Assembly: GCA_902516285.1 (NCBI GenBank)
Contig: CABXXT010000007.1
Location: forward strand, 1 to 63,939
DNA from: an uncultured SAR86 cluster bacterium
GTDB taxonomy: Bacteria > Pseudomonadota > Gammaproteobacteria > Magnimaribacterales > D2472
Length of the DNA: 63,939 nucleotides
Direction: 5' to 3'
The translations under genes were made by a program, and so were the position numbers. The notes under the pieces were generated by a model. The model saw nothing but the letters and a program-made list of their open reading frames with translations, was not told the origin of the DNA and did not search any database. Shown here in pieces: positions 52,407 through 62,863 of the stretch. Numbering within the stretch: the stretch's first letter is position 1; every line of letters starts with the position of its first letter.

Positions 52407-54098
52407 ATGAAAAGTTTTGATTTTATAATTTTAGGAGCTGGTTCAGCAGGATGTGTTTTAGCTAATAGATTAAGTGAAAATACTGATTATACAGTATGCC
52501 TTATTGAGGCTGGCTCAAAAGATAGCGATCCAAGACTTCATATTCCAGTAGGGTTTGCTTTTTTGGGAGATGGAAAAGGAAAATATAATTGGGGTTATGA
52601 GACAGAACCACAAAAAGAATTTGAGAAAGTTTTAGTAACAGAACCTCAAAGAGAAATGGTCGATTCAGCTGGAGGTGTTCATAAGGTTAATGCTGAATCA
52701 CTTGATCACAGAAGAGGATATCAACCAAGAGGCAAAACTCTAGGTGGCTCAAGTTCAATCAATGCAATGCTTTATGTAAGAGGCCACAGGTGGGATTACG
52801 ATCATTGGTCAGAGCTTGGAAATAATGGTTGGTCCTATGACGAGGTACTGCCTTATTTTATAAAAGCAGAACATAATGAGATACTCGACGATGAATTTCA
52901 TGGTCAAAATGGTCCTTTAAATGTAACAAAAATAAGACACGAAAATAGGCCTACTAAAGACTTTGTTGAGACTGGATCAAAAATTTTTGGATATAACGAT
53001 GATTTTAATGGTGAAAATCAAGAGGGTATTGGTTTTTATCAGACAACCCAAAAAGATGGTAAACGATGTAGTGCTGCAAAAGCATATCTTGTGCCTTGCT
53101 TAGACAGAGAAAACCTTACAGTAATGACTGAAACTAACGTGAACAAAATAATTATCGAAAACAATAAAGCTATCGGAGTTGAATGTGTTAACAATAAGGG
53201 AGAGTTTTTTAAAATCAATGCAAATAAAGAGGTTCTTTTATCTTCAGGAGCTTTTGGGTCGCCACAAATTCTTTTAAGATCTGGTATAGGCCCTTCTAAT
53301 GAAATCATCAAACATAATATTGAACATGTTCATGATCTTCCTGGTGTTGGGAAAAATCTCCAAGATCATATTGATTATCTTTCAGTTCATAGATACAACT
53401 CAATGGAGCTTATAGGCTTTTCTCTTAAATCAATTTTTTATAAATTCCCACTTGAGATTCTAAAATATATTTTTGCTAAAGTTGGCATGTTTACTTCAAC
53501 AGTAGCAGAAGCTGGCGGATTTATTAAATCCAATGACGAAATTGATATTCCCGATATGCAACTACATTTTGCACCAGCTATGGTTGTTGATCATGGAAGA
53601 ACAAGTGTTTGGGGACATGGACTTAGTTGTCACGTTTGCTTATTGAGGCCTAAGTCAAGAGGCGAAGTAACTCTCAATTCATCAGATCCAAATGATGATC
53701 CAAAGATTGATCCTAAGTTTTTATCTCATCCTGACGATATGCATGCATTAATAGAAGGATATAAAAAAATGATGATGATTTTAAATGAAGAACCAGTATC
53801 AAAATATACTAGCAATCATGTTGAAAGACCAATTGATTTAAATAATGATAAGGATATTGAGCAAGCAATTCGAGAAGAAGCAGATACTGTTTATCATCCT
53901 GTCGGCACATGTAAGATGGGCAATGACGATATGTCTGTGGTTGACGAAAAACTCAAGGTCTATGGAATTGATGGATTAAGGGTAGTAGATGCATCAATAA
54001 TGCCAACTCTTATTGGCGGTAACACAAATGCTCCAACAATTATGATAGGTGAAAAAGCATCAGATATGATTCTTGAATATTGGCAGAGTAATTTATGA
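52407..54098 (+). CDS. GMC-family FAD oxidoreductase (choline dehydrogenase-like)
   Basis: 563 residues. FAD site at the N-terminus: FIILGAGSAGCVLANRLSE. The GMC signature GKTLGGSSSINAMLYVRG is at about residues 111-128, a second signature is SSGAFGSPQILLRSGIG, and the active-site His is in TVYHPVGTCKMG with the C-terminal Asn in GGNTNAPTIMIGEKA. The ATG at 52407 gives the natural N-terminus. Members oxidise choline or other alcohols; no betaine aldehyde dehydrogenase is nearby, so choline is not supported. The rhodanese gene overlaps its stop by 4 bases. Confidence 0.93.
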   Translation: MKSFDFIILGAGSAGCVLANRLSENTDYTVCLIEAGSKDSDPRLHIPVGFAFLGDGKGKYNWGYETEPQKEFEKVLVTEPQREMVDSAGGVHKVNAESLDHRRGYQPRGKTLGGSSSINAMLYVRGHRWDYDHWSELGNNGWSYDEVLPYFIKAEHNEILDDEFHGQNGPLNVTKIRHENRPTKDFVETGSKIFGYNDDFNGENQEGIGFYQTTQKDGKRCSAAKAYLVPCLDRENLTVMTETNVNKIIIENNKAIGVECVNNKGEFFKINANKEVLLSSGAFGSPQILLRSGIGPSNEIIKHNIEHVHDLPGVGKNLQDHIDYLSVHRYNSMELIGFSLKSIFYKFPLEILKYIFAKVGMFTSTVAEAGGFIKSNDEIDIPDMQLHFAPAMVVDHGRTSVWGHGLSCHVCLLRPKSRGEVTLNSSDPNDDPKIDPKFLSHPDDMHALIEGYKKMMMILNEEPVSKYTSNHVERPIDLNNDKDIEQAIREEADTVYHPVGTCKMGNDDMSVVDEKLKVYGIDGLRVVDASIMPTLIGGNTNAPTIMIGEKASDMILEYWQSNL

Positions 54099-54412
54099 AA
54101 AAACTTTTTGCAATTTTTTTGATACTTGGTAGTTTTTATGTTTTTTCAAGTGACGCGTATATTATTGATGTTAGGACCTCGCAGGAGCATCAATCAGGAC
54201 ATATTGAAAGTTCCTTAAATATTGAGTGGCAAAATATTAAAACATTACCAAGTGCTATAAAAAAAAATGACAAAATATATGTTTATTGTAGGAGTGGAAA
54301 CAGATCTGGAAAAGCTAAAAGCATTTTAGATAGACTCGGCTTCACTAATGTTGAAAATGTTGGTGGAATTGAAGAGGCGTCTCAATATCTTAATAAACCA
54401 ATATTAAAATAA
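54095..54412 (+). CDS. Exported single-domain rhodanese
   Basis: 105 residues, signal peptide about 1-19 (LFAIFLILGSFYVFSS). A rhodanese domain follows (YIIDVRTSQEHQSGHIESS) with the active-site loop YCRSGNRSGKA, catalytic C65. Probably a periplasmic sulfurtransferase or thiol protein. It is translationally coupled to the GMC oxidoreductase. Confidence 0.9.
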   Translation: MKKLFAIFLILGSFYVFSSDAYIIDVRTSQEHQSGHIESSLNIEWQNIKTLPSAIKKNDKIYVYCRSGNRSGKAKSILDRLGFTNVENVGGIEEASQYLNKPILK

Positions 54413-54431
54413 ATATCTTATCTAGCTTTAA

Positions 54432-55355
54432 ATGAAAAATATATTTAGTTTTTTATCAAGATTTACAAATAAAAAAATTTTATCTTTTGACGGTGGTGGT
54501 GTAAGAACTATAGCATCGCTAGTTTTTTTAAAAAAACTTGAAGCAGAAAGTGGCAGAAAAATTAGTGATAGCTTTGACATGTTTATTGGCACTAGTGCTG
54601 GAGCCTTTAATGCTGCTTGTTTTGCATTTGGTGGATTTACAGCTGATAAAGTAAAGAGTTATTGGACTGATACTTATCTCAAGAAAATCATGAAAAGTTC
54701 ATTTTTTTGGGATAAAGCATCTTTGATTCAAGCAAGACCAAGATATGAGAATGCTGGCAGATTAGAGGTTCTTAGAGAGATTTTTGGAGAAAATACTCTT
54801 GATCAATCTAATAAGCCTTTTTTATCTCTTTGTTATGACATAGAAAAAAGATCTCATGTTATTCATAACTCTAAAGATACTCCAGAAATAACTTTTGTTG
54901 ATGCCTTAGCTGCTTCAAGTGCTGCACCAATGTATTATCCAACATATCAAATGCCTGATAAATCATGGATGATTGATGGAAGTATTGTCACCAATAATCC
55001 CACTCTTATAGGATATATTCATGCAAAAAAAATACTTGATACTCAAAATATAAAAATATTGAGTATTGGTTCGGGACAAAATAAAAATAAAATTGAGGGA
55101 AATGCATCGAAAAAATGGGGAGGTGTCGGTTGGTTACGTAATGATATTATGGGTATGTTATTGGATTCTGAAATTCATAACGATATTTCTGATGATATAT
55201 TCCAGGAAAATTACTTAAGAGTTAATTCACCCAGAGGCAAAATTAACAAGTTTTTGGATGATGATTCTCCAGAGAATTTAGAAAAAATTCATTTAATGGG
55301 TCTTGAGTGGTGGTCTAAATATGGTGAAGAAACATTAAAATTCATTTATGAATAA
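54432..55355 (+). CDS. Patatin-like phospholipase
   Basis: 307 residues with the oxyanion motif SFDGGGVRTIA at about 18-28 and the nucleophile S55 in GTSAGAFNAA. The catalytic Asp is in WMIDGSIVTNNP, where the usual DGG/DGA reads DGS. No signal peptide is evident, so it probably acts in the cytoplasm or is delivered without Sec. Patatins release fatty acids from phospholipids or sterol esters; the context of lipid-like redox genes is suggestive only. Confidence 0.9.
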   Translation: MKNIFSFLSRFTNKKILSFDGGGVRTIASLVFLKKLEAESGRKISDSFDMFIGTSAGAFNAACFAFGGFTADKVKSYWTDTYLKKIMKSSFFWDKASLIQARPRYENAGRLEVLREIFGENTLDQSNKPFLSLCYDIEKRSHVIHNSKDTPEITFVDALAASSAAPMYYPTYQMPDKSWMIDGSIVTNNPTLIGYIHAKKILDTQNIKILSIGSGQNKNKIEGNASKKWGGVGWLRNDIMGMLLDSEIHNDISDDIFQENYLRVNSPRGKINKFLDDDSPENLEKIHLMGLEWWSKYGEETLKFIYE

Positions 55356-55391
55356 AGATGCATATAAAATATATAATTTATAGTACTTAAC

Positions 55392-55420
55392 TTGACTTAT
55401 TTTGCTCAAAAAAGTCTAAT
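55392..55420 (+). promoter_or_regulatory. Sigma-70 promoter of the TonB-dependent receptor
   Basis: TTGACT (55392-55397) and TCTAAT (55415-55420) with a 17-base spacer, each one mismatch from consensus. It lies 35 bases before the GTG start and is followed by the ribosome site AGGGGG (55444-55449). Confidence 0.65.
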
Positions 55421-55455
55421 ATCCTATTAAATTCACTAATGCTAGGGGGCCCAGC

Positions 55456-58400
55456 GTGAAAAAATATTTTTTATCGTTAATTTTTTTATTACCTTTCACA
55501 ACTTTTATAATTTCTCAAGATGTTGAAGAAGAGGAAAATGTTGAAGAGGTAGTTGTTACAGGCATAAAAGCTAGTCTTATAGATGCCTTAGAAATCAAAA
55601 GAAATAAGGTTGGAGTAACTGAAATTGTTACTGCAGAGGATATAGGTAAGTTTCCAGATGGAAATTTAGCTGAATCTTTAGCTCGTATAGCTGGTATTTC
55701 TATTGAAAGAAGCAATATTGAAGGTTCAACTATTGCTGTTAGAGGACTTGGACCTGAGTTTAACATGGTCACGCTTAATGGTAGACAAATGCCAACAGCT
55801 CCCGCAGAATTTGGCGGTGGAAGAGCATATGACTTTGGCGCAATCTCATCTCATGGAGTATCAAGATTAGAGGTATATAAAAGTCCAAATCCATCATTGC
55901 CCTCAGGTGGACTTGGTGCAACTATAAACATGGTAACTGCAAAACCTCTTGAGTCAGATAATGGAGGCTCGTTTAGCGTTTTATTAATGGGTGATTCCAC
56001 CAATGAAATTGGTCAAGATTACACACCAGAGATTGAATTTGTTAATTCTTATAAAAGCTCATTTGGCGGCCTTGAGTGGGGCTTGGCAGTTTCAGGTTCT
56101 TATCATGATAGAAATAATAGAGAAGAAACTACAAATGAAATAACTTGGTTCCCAAGTAGCTTAGTTTCAGTACCTACTTTTGGTCCAAATATTTCAAATA
56201 ATAATACTAGATCTGATGGAGTCACATTTAGACCAAACTCATTCCAGCTTGGATACAGAGATAACGAAAGGGTAAGAGAAAACTTCTCAGCATCATTTCA
56301 AATCGGTGGTGAAAAAGTAACTTACACTATAGATACTACATTTTCATCTGTAGAGTTTGGGACTAACAGTGATATGGTTGGCTCTTATTTAGATCATCCA
56401 TATAGAACTGATCAATACGGTAATATAAGCGGTTTTGACAATGTTGTTATTGATAAAAATGGCGTAATGACAAACTTTGATGTGATTGGATCTGTGGCTT
56501 CTTATCAACATACATTAAGATATGAAGATAGTAAATCAACTAACCAATCCGTAGGCTTTAATATTGAATGGGAAGTTAGTGATAGTTTAGTTTTAGAATT
56601 TGATGCTCATCAATCTTCTGCAGCTGTAAAAGGAAACCAAAACGCTCTTAACTTTGGAAATGGCTCATGGTCTGGTTATGGAGATGGTTTACCATTTGAT
56701 AATGGTAATCCATATAATCAGTGGGCTGAACTTGACAAAGTAACATGGACAGCAACTGATGATATACCAGGATATATTCCTGTATATGATATTGGTTTCC
56801 AATATTTTGGCAGAACTGTAAGAGATCTTGAGGCAAGAGATATTACCTCAACAACAGCAATGCTTGAAGATGCAAGAAGAATGAATGATACAAATCAATT
56901 CCAATTTAAAGGAGATTGGAAAAATCTTGATGGCGCACTATCAGAATCATTAGTATCTGTTCAGTTTGGTGTTTCCTATACAAAACAGAATTTCAAAAGA
57001 GTCAAAAGAGAAAATCAACTTTTTTCACCTGAACAATTCGGTTCTGATGCTGCTGTTATCTGGGGACCAAATAACTGGGATGACACAGTATTTACTAAAA
57101 CAAGTTTAGCTGGAATTATGGGAGATAGTTCAAGCATACCAACAGTTCCATATTTCTTTAAAATTAGTAAAGCTGATGCAATTGCTGGCTATGAAGCTGG
57201 TTATTGGGCAGCAGGTTGGGGATGTCCAGACAATAAACTAACTGGCTGTTATGGAGATATCTTTGATGATACAAAAGTAGTTGAAGAAACAACAGTTGCT
57301 TTTGCACAAGCAAATTTTGAAGGAGAAATGAACTCAAAACCTTGGAAGTTAACTGCTGCCTTGAGATATGAGGAAATTGATTTGGCTACTCCACAAGATT
57401 ATCAAAGACCAGGCAATTCTTTTATTGGTCAATACAGCTGGGGTGAGGGGCCTTACTTGATTTACAAAGATTTTGTTAATGTAACAGGTAACTTTGAATC
57501 TACAGCTGATGAAATTTTACCAAGTATTGCCTTTAGTATTTCTACTACAGAAAATACAGTGGTTAGGGCAAGTATAGGTAGAACAATTGCTAGACCAAAT
57601 CTTGAAGATTTTTCTCCAAATGTCGTTTTTCCTCAGTTTCCAAATATAGCTGTAAGGAATCAAGCTGCAACTTCAGGTAATCCATCACTTGAACCATTAA
57701 TAAGTGACAATATTGATTTTGCATTTGAATATTATTATGGAGAAGGGAGTTATGTTGCCCTTAATCTTTTCCAAAAAGATCTTTCGAATTTTGTAGGAAA
57801 CGAAACAGCTATTGGTGTAACTTTCCCAGGTATGTATGATGTAAGATATGGTCTACCTGGAAAAGGACCAGCAGATACTACAACCGCAGTTTTAAACTGG
57901 CCTAACATGCAAACTATTGACCAAGTTGCTTTTGGATCAGTAGATTGGTGGCAAACACTCATGAAAATTTATGTTGCAACATTGCCAGGAACATCATGTA
58001 CTCTTGATCAGAGAACATGGAGCGATTATTTCTACTATAACAGTATGGAATGTGTTGAAGGTAATGCAACATTTAATCCATTAGCAGGTTTTGATGTATT
58101 TAGACCTGAAAACATTAATGAAGGTACTGTTGAAGGAACTGAAATTTCTGTTCAACATTTCTTTGCTGACACCGGTTTTGGTGTTGTTGCTAATTACACA
58201 ATGATTGATGGAGATACTGAGGGCACACCAGGTAACGTTGGTGATGAATTTGCATTGCCTGGATTTGGTGACTCTGGAAACGTTTCAGTTTTTTACGAAG
58301 ACGAAAAGTTCTCTGCAAGAATATCAAATAATTATAAAGCTGAAACATATCAAGGGTATGATCAGTACAATCCATTATTTGTAGAGGCTAGAAGTCAGGT

Positions 58401-58566
58401 AGATGTAAGTTTTAACTATAATGTTAACGAAAACACTACAGTATTTGTTGAAGGAATGAATGTTACTGATTCAGAAGTAAGACTATTTAGCAGATATGAG
58501 AATATGTTATTTTTAGCTCAAAATCATGGACCAGTTTATAAAATTGGTTTTAGAGCAAAATTTTAA
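55456..58566 (+). CDS. TonB-dependent receptor
   Basis: 1036-residue outer-membrane transporter. GTG start; signal peptide about 1-20 (FLSLIFLLPFTTFIIS). After an acidic linker the TonB box region EEVVVTGIKASLIDALEIK leads to the plug domain (GKFPDGNLAESLARIAGISIER, AVRGLGPEFNMVTLNGRQM). The beta-barrel ends in the terminal aromatic residue (KIGFRAKF). The plug pattern is that of the Caulobacter/Xanthomonas carbohydrate- or complex-substrate type rather than a siderophore receptor. No cognate degradation enzymes are identified, so its substrate is unknown. Terminator follows. Confidence 0.94.
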   Translation: MKKYFLSLIFLLPFTTFIISQDVEEEENVEEVVVTGIKASLIDALEIKRNKVGVTEIVTAEDIGKFPDGNLAESLARIAGISIERSNIEGSTIAVRGLGPEFNMVTLNGRQMPTAPAEFGGGRAYDFGAISSHGVSRLEVYKSPNPSLPSGGLGATINMVTAKPLESDNGGSFSVLLMGDSTNEIGQDYTPEIEFVNSYKSSFGGLEWGLAVSGSYHDRNNREETTNEITWFPSSLVSVPTFGPNISNNNTRSDGVTFRPNSFQLGYRDNERVRENFSASFQIGGEKVTYTIDTTFSSVEFGTNSDMVGSYLDHPYRTDQYGNISGFDNVVIDKNGVMTNFDVIGSVASYQHTLRYEDSKSTNQSVGFNIEWEVSDSLVLEFDAHQSSAAVKGNQNALNFGNGSWSGYGDGLPFDNGNPYNQWAELDKVTWTATDDIPGYIPVYDIGFQYFGRTVRDLEARDITSTTAMLEDARRMNDTNQFQFKGDWKNLDGALSESLVSVQFGVSYTKQNFKRVKRENQLFSPEQFGSDAAVIWGPNNWDDTVFTKTSLAGIMGDSSSIPTVPYFFKISKADAIAGYEAGYWAAGWGCPDNKLTGCYGDIFDDTKVVEETTVAFAQANFEGEMNSKPWKLTAALRYEEIDLATPQDYQRPGNSFIGQYSWGEGPYLIYKDFVNVTGNFESTADEILPSIAFSISTTENTVVRASIGRTIARPNLEDFSPNVVFPQFPNIAVRNQAATSGNPSLEPLISDNIDFAFEYYYGEGSYVALNLFQKDLSNFVGNETAIGVTFPGMYDVRYGLPGKGPADTTTAVLNWPNMQTIDQVAFGSVDWWQTLMKIYVATLPGTSCTLDQRTWSDYFYYNSMECVEGNATFNPLAGFDVFRPENINEGTVEGTEISVQHFFADTGFGVVANYTMIDGDTEGTPGNVGDEFALPGFGDSGNVSVFYEDEKFSARISNNYKAETYQGYDQYNPLFVEARSQVDVSFNYNVNENTTVFVEGMNVTDSEVRLFSRYENMLFLAQNHGPVYKIGFRAKF

Positions 58567-58582
58567 TTAGATTTCATTAATT

Positions 58583-58611
58583 AAAAGAGGGCTTTATGCC
58601 CTCTTTTTTTT
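58583..58611 (+). terminator. Rho-independent terminator after the TonB receptor
   Basis: AAAAGAGGGC pairs with GCCCTCTTTT around TTTAT, followed by a T run. Confidence 0.9.
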
Positions 58612-58624
58612 ATATAATATATAT

Positions 58625-60682
58625 ATGAGAATTTTTAACTTATTTATAGTTATTTTTTTTATTGCTTCATGTGGAGGCGGTGGAGGTGGTGGCTCGCCTG
58701 CAGTACCATTTGCAATAACATTAGCATCAAATATTTTTTCTCTTGAAGAGGATACTACTTTCAATGGCTCGATATCAGCAACTGCTAATGAAGTTGTTAC
58801 CTTATCCTATTCAATAACGTCAACAACCACTAATGGAAGTCTTAATTTATCCGGCTCTGGTTCAATTACATATATTCCTAATAAAGATTTTAATGGCCAA
58901 GACCAATTTACATATTCAGTGACCGCCAGTGAAAAAAATGTTACTGAAACTTCAACAGTTTCGATCACTGTTAACCCTGTAAATGATGCTCCAACAATCT
59001 CAATAGTCACAAACCAAGATTACGATGACGGAAATTTATTATTTGATCAAAATCCTATATTTTCAATAACTTTTAACGATATAGATAACGAAGTAAATGA
59101 ATTATTATTTAGCTCAAAAGTAAATTCGATTGAAGTACCTTCAACATTCACATCGACTGGAGAAAATTCAGGTGATATTCAACTAGATTTATCAACACTA
59201 ACTAATGCCGGACTATTTAATACAGAAATTATTATTTCAGACGGCAGCTTATCCAATAGTGATATGTTTACCACATGGTTAATTTCTAACAAAACGACTG
59301 TAACAATAAATCAAGACGACAATCCAGATGACGGATTTGATGGTGGCGCAAAAACACAAAAAGATTATTATGTATATTATTTATCTGGAAGTCCAAACTC
59401 AATTGGAAGAACAAAATATTTATTTATTGGTGATTCTCTTGATGGTCAAAGTGATATAGATCTATACAGAAGGGCATTAGTTGCTTCGGTTAATAAATTA
59501 CGAAATTCAGATGCTTCAGAATTTTTTAGTGATGATTACTTTACAGTGGTTTCTGCTGAGCCTGTTGATCCAGATGGTACTTCTCCTGTTGCTGTTAGAA
59601 CAGGTTGTTATGATTTTGACGAAGACATTTATTGTATTGGAGAAATGGATACTGATATTTTTGATGAACTCCTACCAGATAATGTTTTAGTATCTGTCCT
59701 CACAAGAGTTGTAAATCCTGATACTGGACTTGGAAGAGGAGTCAATCAAGGTTATAAAAATATTCAACGTATAAGAGATGACGATCCTGAAAGAACCAGA
59801 CATACTTTAATGCATGAGCTTGGTCATGCTCATGGATTTATGGGGGATGAGTATAGAAGTGATGAAAGAGATCTGACGGACAATGGATACAATGTAAACA
59901 CTTCAACACAATCCGATGTTGATTTAATCAAATGGAATCATCACATTGAAGATAAGTTAAATGTTTTAGGAAAAGAAATTAAAGTTTGCTATAACAGAGC
60001 TGATGGTTCGATTGCAGATTTTGATGATGTTGGTATTAATATTGAGGACTGTAATTGCTTTGTAAATATCTGGGATTCTGACGGTAATTTTGTAAGTAAA
60101 AATCCCGAATGCAGCAAAGTAGGATTATTTGAAGGTAACTACTATGGTCTATATGATAATTTTAGGCCAACTTATTGTTCAGTTATGGATAAATGCACAA
60201 GCGGAGGATATGGCCCAGTTAATGTTGAGGGTTTCGCGGTCGGCTCCATTCAAAACCAAGGATTTTATAGAGCTGATTCTGTTGGCTATACAAGAAATGA
60301 GGCTGGAAATAGAAGTGGAATAAGAATTGAAATGGATGTTGCATATGATACTTCCAAAATTACCTTAAAATGGTATGTTAACGGAGTAGAAGATGCTTCG
60401 AAAGAAAATCAAACCACAGTAACTTTTAATAGACCAACAAATAATTCAATACAATTTTATACAGCAAAAGCAATAGATTTGACAGGAACAATTTCAGCGA
60501 TAGACGATGTTACAGACTACAACGATTTTTATGAGGGAGCTTTTCAATCATATTTTGGATGGTACTCACAAGCTACAGGATGGGTAATCGAGGATAATTC
60601 ATCAGAATATGTAAATTATGATTACGGTTCATTATATGGTCCACTTGGATTTACATGGGCTTTTAACTGGACAAGGCTATGA
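58625..60682 (+). CDS. M64-type metallopeptidase lipoprotein with cadherin-like domain
   Basis: 685 residues. The N-terminus is a signal peptide with lipobox (LFIVIFFIASCGGGG), followed by a cadherin/VCBS-like region (about 30-125, TYIPNKDFNGQDQFTYSVTA and SITVNPVNDAP) and a second Ig-like stretch. The catalytic domain contains the zinc motif at residues 397-410, HELGHAHGFMGDEY: H397, E398, H401, then D408 seven residues later, followed by EY. This HExxH-x6-DEY pattern fits peptidase family M64 (IgA peptidase family). Several downstream cysteines suggest an extracellular, disulfide-bonded enzyme. The next gene overlaps the stop by 4 bases. Confidence 0.87.
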   Translation: MRIFNLFIVIFFIASCGGGGGGGSPAVPFAITLASNIFSLEEDTTFNGSISATANEVVTLSYSITSTTTNGSLNLSGSGSITYIPNKDFNGQDQFTYSVTASEKNVTETSTVSITVNPVNDAPTISIVTNQDYDDGNLLFDQNPIFSITFNDIDNEVNELLFSSKVNSIEVPSTFTSTGENSGDIQLDLSTLTNAGLFNTEIIISDGSLSNSDMFTTWLISNKTTVTINQDDNPDDGFDGGAKTQKDYYVYYLSGSPNSIGRTKYLFIGDSLDGQSDIDLYRRALVASVNKLRNSDASEFFSDDYFTVVSAEPVDPDGTSPVAVRTGCYDFDEDIYCIGEMDTDIFDELLPDNVLVSVLTRVVNPDTGLGRGVNQGYKNIQRIRDDDPERTRHTLMHELGHAHGFMGDEYRSDERDLTDNGYNVNTSTQSDVDLIKWNHHIEDKLNVLGKEIKVCYNRADGSIADFDDVGINIEDCNCFVNIWDSDGNFVSKNPECSKVGLFEGNYYGLYDNFRPTYCSVMDKCTSGGYGPVNVEGFAVGSIQNQGFYRADSVGYTRNEAGNRSGIRIEMDVAYDTSKITLKWYVNGVEDASKENQTTVTFNRPTNNSIQFYTAKAIDLTGTISAIDDVTDYNDFYEGAFQSYFGWYSQATGWVIEDNSSEYVNYDYGSLYGPLGFTWAFNWTRL

Positions 60683-61161
60683 GAATATTCTTGATAATAA
60701 CTATTTTTACTATGTGTATTAGTTTTAATGTATTCTCTTCAAATGCATTAAATATTATTCCTACTGAAAGCAATAAACCATTAGACCCAGTTTCAATTGA
60801 AAATAAAGCTAAAATTTTCTCATTATCTGGTAACAAAAGTGGTTTGAAAATAAATAAATCTGTCATAGCAAAACCCTCAAATACAACCTTAAAAAATTTG
60901 ATGCCATTTTCAAAAAGAGATAAATACGCATTGAAAGTTCTGAATGAAGATAAAAAAACTATTATGATCTATGGTTTAGGCAATCCCTTTTATATTCATG
61001 CACAACATATTGATTTTGAAGATAGAGAATTTTTTGGTGGTTATGTAAATGCAGATTTTAAGGTTGCATTCTCTTTAGATTTAGATATTTCTTATTTAAT
61101 TCTTCTTGAACAAAATGAAGGATTTTTAAGAGAAATTAATGAAATAAAACTCATTAATTAG
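60679..61161 (+). CDS. Exported hypothetical protein coupled to the M64 peptidase
   Basis: 160-residue protein with a signal peptide (about 1-20, FLIITIFTMCISFNVFSS). The mature protein has a basic, extended N-terminal part (IENKAKIFSLSGNKSGLKIN) and a beta-rich C-terminal half (MIYGLGNPFYIHAQHIDFEDRE, FGGYVNADFKVAFSLDLDIS). I do not recognise the family. The ATGA overlap with the peptidase gene and shared export suggest a partner, inhibitor or substrate, which is inference. Confidence 0.7.
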   Translation: MRIFLIITIFTMCISFNVFSSNALNIIPTESNKPLDPVSIENKAKIFSLSGNKSGLKINKSVIAKPSNTTLKNLMPFSKRDKYALKVLNEDKKTIMIYGLGNPFYIHAQHIDFEDREFFGGYVNADFKVAFSLDLDISYLILLEQNEGFLREINEIKLIN

Positions 61162-61185
61162 CTTTAATTACAATCTTTTTATTTC

Positions 61186-61214
61186 TTGAAAGCTTTTGTT
61201 TTAAAGAGTATATT
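61186..61214 (+). promoter_or_regulatory. Promoter of tRNA-Gly
   Basis: TTGAAA (61186-61191), 17-base spacer, TATATT (61209-61214), ending 12 bases before the tRNA. Good match to sigma-70 for this AT-rich genome. Confidence 0.65.
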
Positions 61215-61226
61215 AATCTCCCAAAT

Positions 61227-61302
61227 GCGGTACTAGCTCAGTTGGTAGAGCGTCTGCTTGCCAAGCAGAAGGCCGCCGGTTCGAGACCGGCGTACCGCAC
61301 CA
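61227..61302 (+). tRNA. tRNA-Gly (anticodon GCC)
   Basis: GCGGTAC/GTACCGC acceptor stem, D arm TAGCTCAGTTGGTAGAGC, anticodon stem CTGCT/AGCAG around TGCCA with loop TTGCCAA, giving GCC, and T arm GCCGGTTCGAGACCGGC. CCA is encoded (61300-61302). A weak T-rich stretch after it may terminate transcription. Confidence 0.97.
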
Positions 61303-61396: not shown

Positions 61397-62101
61397 ATGA
61401 AAAATTATATTTATAGTTTTTTTGCATTGTTATTAATATCATCTCAATCTGTTTTTTCTGCAGGCTACTTAGCAACTTATTCTTTTCAAGTTTCAAATCC
61501 AGCAGCATATATAGAAGCAGTTGATGAATTAATGGCTACTGAATGGGGAAAATCTTTTCCATCAGTTGTTGCTGTTCATCAATATGCATTTAATGGATAT
61601 GATGATGCTACACACGTTGTTGTTTTAAATTATGATGATCCTGAGAGTGTAGGTTCTGGTACTGAATCATTTAATGATCCTATATTTCAATCCTTTTTAG
61701 CAAAAACTGCTTCAATTGCTGAACCAGTTGAGCAAACATTAAATATGAAATTAATTAGTGGTGGAAATGAAGATCCATTAAAGAATCAAGTTTATACAAT
61801 ATACAGAATGCAAGTTAAGGATCCTGGATCATATGCAGCAGCTTATTCTGATGTTATCGAAGCGCAGGCTGAAGCTGGAAATATTATAGGTTCATATGGC
61901 TTGAGACAGCTTGTAGGTGGAGACTCAAGATATTACACGCATTACGCATACTTTAGTGCTGGAAGTATTGGTGAACAATTATCAACGAGTGAAGCACTAT
62001 TTTCATCAGATTCTTACGCAACTTTTGCAGAAGAAGTTGGCGAAAATAGAAGAATAATGAATGTTTCTACTTTAGTTAATTTAGTAACATATAACAATTA
62101 G
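61397..62101 (+). CDS. Exported tandem ABM-like protein
   Basis: 234 residues with a signal peptide (about 1-21, FFALLLISSQSVFSA). The mature protein seems to be two ferredoxin-like halves: one beginning YLATYSFQVSNPAAYIEAVDEL and a second beginning VYTIYRMQVKDPGSYAAAYSDV, both continuing with a helix, strands around VVVLNYDDPESV or YAYFSAGSIGE and a helix SFLAKTA or TFAEEVG. The DP(G/A)(S/A)Y motif after the first strand is shared by both halves. Function unknown. Ribosome site TAGGAG; the next secreted gene starts 9 bases later. Confidence 0.8.
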   Translation: MKNYIYSFFALLLISSQSVFSAGYLATYSFQVSNPAAYIEAVDELMATEWGKSFPSVVAVHQYAFNGYDDATHVVVLNYDDPESVGSGTESFNDPIFQSFLAKTASIAEPVEQTLNMKLISGGNEDPLKNQVYTIYRMQVKDPGSYAAAYSDVIEAQAEAGNIIGSYGLRQLVGGDSRYYTHYAYFSAGSIGEQLSTSEALFSSDSYATFAEEVGENRRIMNVSTLVNLVTYNN

Positions 62102-62110
62102 GAGAGATTT

Positions 62111-62863
62111 ATGAAAATTTTATTTAGTTTATGTTTATTGACTAGTTTACTAGTTTTTGCAGATGATCATGAAGAAGATAAACCAATGTATGAAGCTAAT
62201 GTAGCAGAGTATTATTTTTCTTCTTTCAAAGAAGGCAAAGATATGGATGACATGATGAAGTGGGCTGAAAAATGGGAAAAATGGGCAACTACTGGTGATG
62301 CTGCTGAACCTAATGCAGATTATAGTGCATCTATCTTAGTACCATATTATGGTGTTAACTTGGATCAGGTAGACTTTGTATGGCTAGGAATTAATTCAAA
62401 TCCAGAAATGCAAGCAATTGGAAATGACTACTGGGTTCAAAATGGTGAAAAGCTTTTGGCTGAACTGCCGGTTACAAATTCACAAGTTGCAAATACTTGG
62501 CAAAGAACTGTTTCTGAGACACCAGATGGCTCTGCAGGATATGTTGTTTATTCAGATTGTAGATATGGTGAGGGTGTTACTGCTCAACAGGAATACGATG
62601 CATGGTTTGCTTTTGCTCAAGCTGCAAAAAAATTAGGAGATGTCGCTGGCAGAAAAATGATATGGCCTACTATGGGGGTAACACCTGGATGGGATTATGA
62701 TTATGTCCAAGCAGTGTACACATCTTCAATAACTGATTATGGTAAAAACTGGACTAACTTTTGGGGTGCAGATAATGAGATGCCTGAATATGAAGCAATG
62801 GTTGCAATGGGTGGTGAGTGTGAAAATGAAAGATCATTTACTATAGTTCCAATCAAAAATTAA
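62111..62863 (+). CDS. Exported protein, paralogue of the 46.2 kb gene
   Basis: 250 residues, signal peptide about 1-17 (ILFSLCLLTSLLVFA) followed by DDHEEDK. It is alignable by eye with the 46151-46888 protein: AEYYFSSFKEGKDMDDMMKW, TWQRTVSETPDGSAGYVVYSDCRYGEGV, FAQAAKKLGDVAGRKMIWP, GWDYDYVQAVYTSSI (each shown in part). Two cysteines in the second half correspond to those of the paralogue. The partner upstream gene and this one form an operon. A terminator follows after 17 bases. No biochemical role is recognised. Confidence 0.8.
   Translation: MKILFSLCLLTSLLVFADDHEEDKPMYEANVAEYYFSSFKEGKDMDDMMKWAEKWEKWATTGDAAEPNADYSASILVPYYGVNLDQVDFVWLGINSNPEMQAIGNDYWVQNGEKLLAELPVTNSQVANTWQRTVSETPDGSAGYVVYSDCRYGEGVTAQQEYDAWFAFAQAAKKLGDVAGRKMIWPTMGVTPGWDYDYVQAVYTSSITDYGKNWTNFWGADNEMPEYEAMVAMGGECENERSFTIVPIKN

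Follow-up and report, generated by a model that had tools for sequence, protein, structure and literature searches.

To our knowledge, structures of M64 peptidases are known almost only from gut bacteria. In BF3526, as reported, the N-terminal domain flanks or overlies the active site and limits access to it, and residue E97 of that domain binds the main chain of the substrate at P2 (PMC12402451). Cutting BF3526 with chymotrypsin resulted in broader hydrolysis, and its catalytic domain alone did not express (PMC12402451). The published igalysin motif is HExxHxxxGxxD; the same sources describe a second, structural zinc site composed of the Glu that follows the third ligand and three Cys residues (PMC12402451, PMC12237041).

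We analyzed a 63,939-nucleotide stretch of DNA from an uncultured SAR86 cluster bacterium (contig CABXXT010000007.1), referred to here as the window. SAR86 is among the most abundant surface-ocean lineages. In the window, the gene for an M64-type metallopeptidase lipoprotein is followed by a gene for an exported protein, hereafter the partner. The two share an ATGA, confirming the four-base overlap reported in an initial annotation made from the sequence alone. The window's own genome, assembled to 81% completeness, yielded a single copy of each gene. Among the papers listed by searches of openly licensed literature, none described an M64 gene paired with an overlapping exported partner in its title or abstract opening. 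The pair comprises the following features:

58625-60682, + strand: M64-type metallopeptidase lipoprotein gene (685 aa, ATG start)
58625-58672, + strand: lipoprotein signal peptide with lipobox IASC (residues 1-16), then a glycine run; read from the sequence, with Cys16 invariant in 35 aligned relatives
58697-59332, + strand: two cadherin/Ig-like domains, approximately residues 25-236 (Big_9, Cadherin_5; boundaries from the model of L127, a fused relative)
59357-60214, + strand: M64 (igalysin-type) catalytic domain, approximately residues 245-530 (Pfam; fold match of L127)
59813-59854, + strand: zinc motif HELGHAHGFMGDEY, residues 397-410, with H397, E398, H401, D408, E409 and Y410 invariant (35 rows)
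60185-60187, + strand: candidate Met-turn methionine M521, invariant in 35 rows and with suitable neighbouring residues (role suggested by PMC12237041)
60242-60679, + strand: C-terminal beta region that may resemble the ThomasA/IgAse wrapping domain (L127 model compared with ThomasA)
60679-60682, + strand: ATGA shared by the M64 stop and the partner start (read from the sequence)
60679-61161, + strand: exported partner gene (160 aa, ATG start), proposed to encode a detached M64_N-like lid subunit
60802-61158, + strand: partner beta-sandwich core, residues 42-160, with motif GLGNPFYIHAQHIDFE at residues 99-114 (AlphaFold pLDDT mostly >85)

A variant M64 catalytic chain

Sequence and fold both placed the protease in family M64. 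Pfam assigned Peptidase_M64 (PF09471) to residues 361-523 of the window protease at 28.9 bits, above the curated cut-off of 26. The fold was judged on an AlphaFold model of the fused relative L127 rather than on the window protein itself; in this model (pLDDT 79, pTM 0.67; interface between the partner and protease parts unreadable), residues 241-558 aligned with residues 156-426 of 9qdi, the catalytic domain of BF3526, with Z 15.2, rmsd 3.5 and 247 aligned residues. The assignment originally read from the spacing of the zinc motif was therefore right by HMM search and by fold, and the catalytic domain was not predicted as another family. A PDB search by sequence with the protease returned only cadherin-like or weak M64 rows.

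The window protein carries the igalysin spacing HExxH-x6-D, with Asp as third ligand and then EY, all invariant in the 35 rows. From this alignment H397, H401 and D408 are predicted to be the zinc ligands and E398 the base, with M521 the likely Met-turn residue. The Gly at position 9 of the published motif is absent from the window protein, which has Gly at positions 8 and 11 instead. Of the structural zinc site, E409 is invariant, but there is no Cys at Met-turn minus-2 and no conserved CxxC after it. Since the Pfam score and fold are those of the family while Gly9 and the Cys residues are missing, we classified the window protease as a variant M64 rather than a canonical igalysin.

Ahead of the catalytic domain, Pfam recognized Big_9 (residues 35-115) and Cadherin_5 (residues 63-117), and the cadherin tandem in the L127 model gave structural matches at Z ~9. 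Together with the lipobox, these bear out the cadherin-like domains and lipoprotein signal noted at the outset. The L127 model also aligned with ThomasA (residues 240-663 against 330-761; Z 11.9), including the beta domain that follows the catalytic one. The sequences gave no evidence of IgA cleavage by the SAR86 protease, and an IgA-directed role was dropped because support for it is absent in this lineage. The family name is historical, and "IgA peptidase" annotations are misleading on such proteins.

Resemblance of the partner to M64_N

In the window sequence the N-terminus of the partner is hydrophobic, and the protein would be exported through the Sec pathway. Its AlphaFold model (pLDDT 84) is a nine-stranded beta-sandwich. 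Residues D81, G99, G101, P103, F104, H110, I111 and E114 are invariant in 37 rows, and P103 is the sole invariant residue once the alignment is widened to 68 rows. No Pfam family matched the partner at E<=1 or E<=10, and a PDB search by sequence returned nothing useful. Of the early description "basic exported protein", export agrees with the N-terminus, and basicity holds weakly for the window protein, with a computed pI of 7.8 over residues 29-160 and of 8.8 over the C-terminal 122 residues. It is not conserved, however, as pI ranges from 4.9 to 9.5 (median 6.9) across 47 relatives encoded by separate (split) genes.

The partner model was compared with 998 chains from Foldseek's top 1000. 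The best PDB matches were 3p1v (Z 6.9), 9qdi (6.8) and 4df9 (6.5), with the next entry at 5.3; even the highest value is below ~8, the level that the tool counts as a safe match. All three are Bacteroides M64 peptidases, aligned at their N-terminal domain (residues 20-147) with rmsd 4.9-5.1. Foldseek alone gave no match to the partner model at E<=0.001 and ranked 4df9 13th.

Profiles were compared with hhalign, using an M64_N profile made from 32 gammaproteobacterial M64_N domains and two PDB rows. The partner core aligned with it collinearly from end to end over 105-110 columns (score 25.8, E 0.001), at a probability of only 19-24%. Among the controls, the best of 150 column shuffles scored 19.4, the reversed profile 12.1 and four other M64 regions 8.7-13.8. 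As the Pfam profile for M64_N (PF16217) was unmatched at E<=10 in 37 partner members and in the window partner, we filed the partner as M64_N-like and not as an M64_N member. At the level of single residues, BF3526 E97, the Glu of LFQEW, aligns to a variable partner position with no conserved Glu, and the invariant H110 and E114 lie a few residues beyond this collinear position. An equivalence of partner E114 and BF3526 E97 is thus not supported.

The fold and profile tests, each weak, converge on M64_N, the family expected beside an M64 catalytic domain. On these model and profile comparisons, the partner is a probable M64_N-like lid. An unrelated beta-sandwich module that aids the protease (e.g. 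by binding substrate or a surface), with the M64_N match reflecting a common Ig-like arrangement, would account for a Z below 8, for the many Ig-like rows at Z 4-5 and for an hhalign probability of ~20%. It sits poorly, however, with three top rows that are all M64 N-domains and cover 107-112 residues, versus ~70-87 for others, and with the end-to-end collinearity of the profile alignment. M64_N is, moreover, missing in cis from these proteases; PF16217 was found neither in the window protease nor in L180 or L181. We judge such a module quite unlikely and retain the M64_N-like lid as the probable identity of the partner.

Conservation, surroundings and fusion of the gene pair

The M64 gene was found in 32 of 34 searched genomes of the window's genus, counting a copy in G016 that is cut by a contig end; no such gene was seen in G010 and G030. 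An M64 peptidase had been called unusual in a free-living marine cell, which is untrue for this lineage. A single-sequence search detected the partner in 31 of 60 related genomes, and profile A3 in 33, with weak matches in G040 and G049. Profile A3 was built without L137 (X letters), L145 and the second L080 copy (fragments), L140 and L144; alignment A4 contained 45 chosen rows. M64 matches occurred in the partner-bearing genomes and, cut short by contig ends, in G016 and as a second G027 copy. Genomes G019, G031 and G056 carry divergent M64s; behind each lies a small, overlapping exported ORF that the partner profile did not recognize above E 0.001. Divergent M64s with overlapping small exported ORFs, barely matched by the partner profile, were observed in SAR86-order genomes at loci L239, L240 and L241.

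Across 71 SAR86-type loci from named genomes, the partner was kept in 70, and the 71st is cut by a contig edge. This conservation answers the doubt, raised with the initial annotation, that the partner might not recur next to M64 homologues. An open partner frame was present in 68 loci, 47 of them split and 21 fused to the M64 frame. In the remaining three, the partner has one internal stop (L144, labelled split by position), or is in fragments (L145), or the locus ends at the contig edge (L140). Of the 47 split pairs, 46 have a longest partner frame that overlaps the M64 frame, and L107 has a 3-base gap. Direct search beyond SAR86 found the partner in 2 of 369 genomes of the class, both from the window's genus. 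The SAR86A scaffold (L062/L080) has two tandem copies of the M64-partner unit, arranged around tRNA-like DNA that is itself repeated; in the first of these copies some bases are unknown and the partner is broken.

Where M64_N is present in cis, an overlapping downstream ORF was seen in one of 32 M64 loci (32 of 33, with L156 left out), and that ORF is not exported-looking. Small ORFs without overlap follow M64 in five of these loci, exported-looking and 16-78 bases behind in L154, L157, L161 and L163, and membrane-anchored-looking and 6 bases behind in L162. In the gammaproteobacterial family f148, an M64 domain was found in 28 of 48 genomes. A small exported ORF overlaps M64 or lies <=75 bases behind it in 24 of these 28 loci and in front of it in one; another locus stops at a contig end, and L181 and L220 are without a companion. 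Six further gammaproteobacterial M64 loci included two with a companion, L232 and L183, which represent two more families, with the L183 companion upstream of M64; L182 and L231 have none, and L233 and L234 were not counted.

The f148 proteins are called companions by position and layout only. Their homology with the SAR86 partner was not borne out, since the profile alignment was not significant (15.2, vs shuffles up to 21.95); with more rows it reached 18.65, against 18.14 for the best of 100 shuffles. The upstream protein of L183 aligned weakly with the SAR86 partner (23.9; best of 150 shuffles, 21.2).

The surroundings of the window pair include the following features:

55456-58566, + strand: TonB-dependent receptor, upstream neighbour (TIGR01782, E 1.5e-149)
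58583-58607, + strand: intrinsic-terminator-like hairpin ending the TonB-dependent receptor gene (2 such hairpins found in the region vs 1.3 expected from shuffles)
58613-58618, + strand: TATAAT, 6 bases before the M64 start, a candidate -10 element of a putative leaderless transcript
61227-61302: tRNA-Gly, behind the partner gene

A similar hairpin before M64 is visible in most of 14 relatives. An exact TATAAT lies <=18 bases from a candidate start in 39 of 64 loci (L078-L148), with a spacing of exactly 6 in 20 of the 39, counts that are biased upward because the start with the best match was chosen. As sequence signals, the hairpin and the TATAAT immediately after it suggest a leaderless M64 transcript and a conserved layout.

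Upstream, 39 of 48 split loci have a patatin homologue, and 35 of 48 have a homologue of the TonB-dependent receptor at a distance of <400 bp. The order rhodanese-patatin-TonB receptor-M64-partner-tRNA-Gly (54095-61302 in the window) is common to many SAR86 loci. An obligate unit of M64 and TonB receptor is not supported, since L083, L084, L112 and L114 lack a receptor between patatin and M64. A functional link between the receptor and the M64 pair is only suggested. Two exported proteins encoded downstream (61397-62101 and 62111-62863) match no Pfam family above cut-off; homologues of the second occur in 36 of 48 split loci.

Fusion was seen in 21 loci, where the M64 protein (818-883 aa) ends in the partner domain, the partner's signal peptide is absent and the zinc motif is retained. 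Several genomes hold a split pair and a fused paralogue together. The fused L116 retains a split-style junction and has a tRNA 61 bases behind it, and the fused L133, L135 and L146 share the patatin-TonB receptor-tRNA locus of split copies. Some other fused copies adjoin a clp-like gene, as read from the sequence. An M64 tree of the window and 69 of the 71 loci (L080 and L145 were under the length limit) has at least two changes between fused and split states; it is unrooted and gives no direction for them, and its most divergent rows are split. With L138 (long branch) also removed, a second tree was built and a single fused clade was rejected (AU test, p-AU 3e-5).

We conclude that M64 and its partner very probably constitute one functional unit. 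The fusions also bear on the roles first proposed for the partner, namely inhibitor, chaperone or processed effector. A substrate would not be permanently fused to its own protease, so the processed effector is not supported and a substrate role is out.

Protease-inhibitor pairs are usually encoded with an adjacent exported protein, the layout seen here. A dedicated inhibitor would keep the protease off in the cell envelope and dissociate outside, and the BF3526 N-terminal domain is reported to restrict access too (PMC12402451). Fusion in 21 loci nevertheless makes dissociation unlikely unless the fused enzymes are permanently latent, and the fused copies still have their zinc motif; a separable inhibitor is accordingly disfavoured and, in our estimation, very unlikely.

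A folding or export helper (foldase/chaperone) that leaves the M64 chain after maturation would fit the overlap of the genes, the export of the partner along with the protease and the reported failure of the BF3526 catalytic domain to express without its N-terminal domain (PMC12402451). Yet the partner, stably fused in 21 loci, need not leave, and its fold resembles a permanent enzyme domain. The chaperone proposal keeps the argument from expression, but we regard it as unlikely, a lid or substrate-gating subunit being better supported.

A proposed two-chain peptidase and known systems

By analogy with the BF3526 N-terminal domain, and from the sequences and models above, we lean towards a split M64 peptidase in which the lid is supplied in trans and, in some lineages, re-fused at the opposite end. 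The two genes would then specify the two chains of one enzyme. By its lipobox, the first chain would be an outer-membrane lipoprotein that combines cadherin-like spacers with an M64 metzincin catalytic domain and lacks the N-terminal beta-sandwich (M64_N) found ahead of the catalytic domain in Bacteroides-type M64s. The second chain, produced by coupled translation and presumably Sec-exported, would bring an equivalent beta-sandwich. It may dock over the active-site cleft as a lid, stabilizing the catalytic domain, adding to non-primed substrate binding and restricting entry to peptide ends that are short or flexible. Loss of the stop, the start and the signal peptide would, in some lineages, have turned the lid into the C-terminus of the protease, an order permuted relative to Bacteroides. 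At the cell surface, the enzyme might trim peptides ahead of TonB-dependent uptake.

More broadly, it is quite possible, and we propose tentatively, that this is a metzincin with a separate, co-translated, exported lid chain, and that the same lid can serve in trans or, from either end of the enzyme, in cis. The lid would be detached and behind the catalytic gene here, in front of it elsewhere in Gammaproteobacteria (L183, L202), and fused to the opposite end in SAR86, either on two or more occasions or once with a later split. If so, assembly or exchange of the lid could regulate what SAR86 trims at its surface before TonB-dependent uptake, and a two-chain M64 would be kept throughout a genus of an abundant surface-ocean lineage. 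A function would also be suggested for an exported protein family that is nameless in Pfam. The split and fused natural constructs would suit tests of how a lid controls a metzincin.

Two-subunit M16 peptidases contain a catalytic and a non-catalytic chain that close around the substrate. They resemble the proposed SAR86 enzyme in having a catalytic chain plus a non-catalytic partner chain, but their fold and clan are unrelated, and in M16 the non-catalytic chain is itself a degenerate version of the catalytic one. ThomasA/IgAse of Thomasclavelia ramosa shares the catalytic fold and the beta domain after it (Z 11.9); it has another N-terminal domain and a sortase anchor, and the available portions of its reports describe no separate lid chain (PMC12402451, PMC12237041).

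BF3526 and BACOVA_00663 (PDB 4DF9, 9QDI, 3P1V) have the same M64 catalytic fold (Z 12-15), and their N-terminal domain resembles the SAR86 beta-sandwich partner. In the SAR86 protease, unlike these Bacteroides peptidases, the three structural-zinc Cys are not conserved and the zinc-motif Gly is one place earlier. Cadherin-like domains stand where the Bacteroides enzymes have their lid. The Bacteroides lid is N-terminal and part of the same chain, whereas the putative SAR86 lid is either encoded downstream as a chain of its own or fused at the C-terminus.
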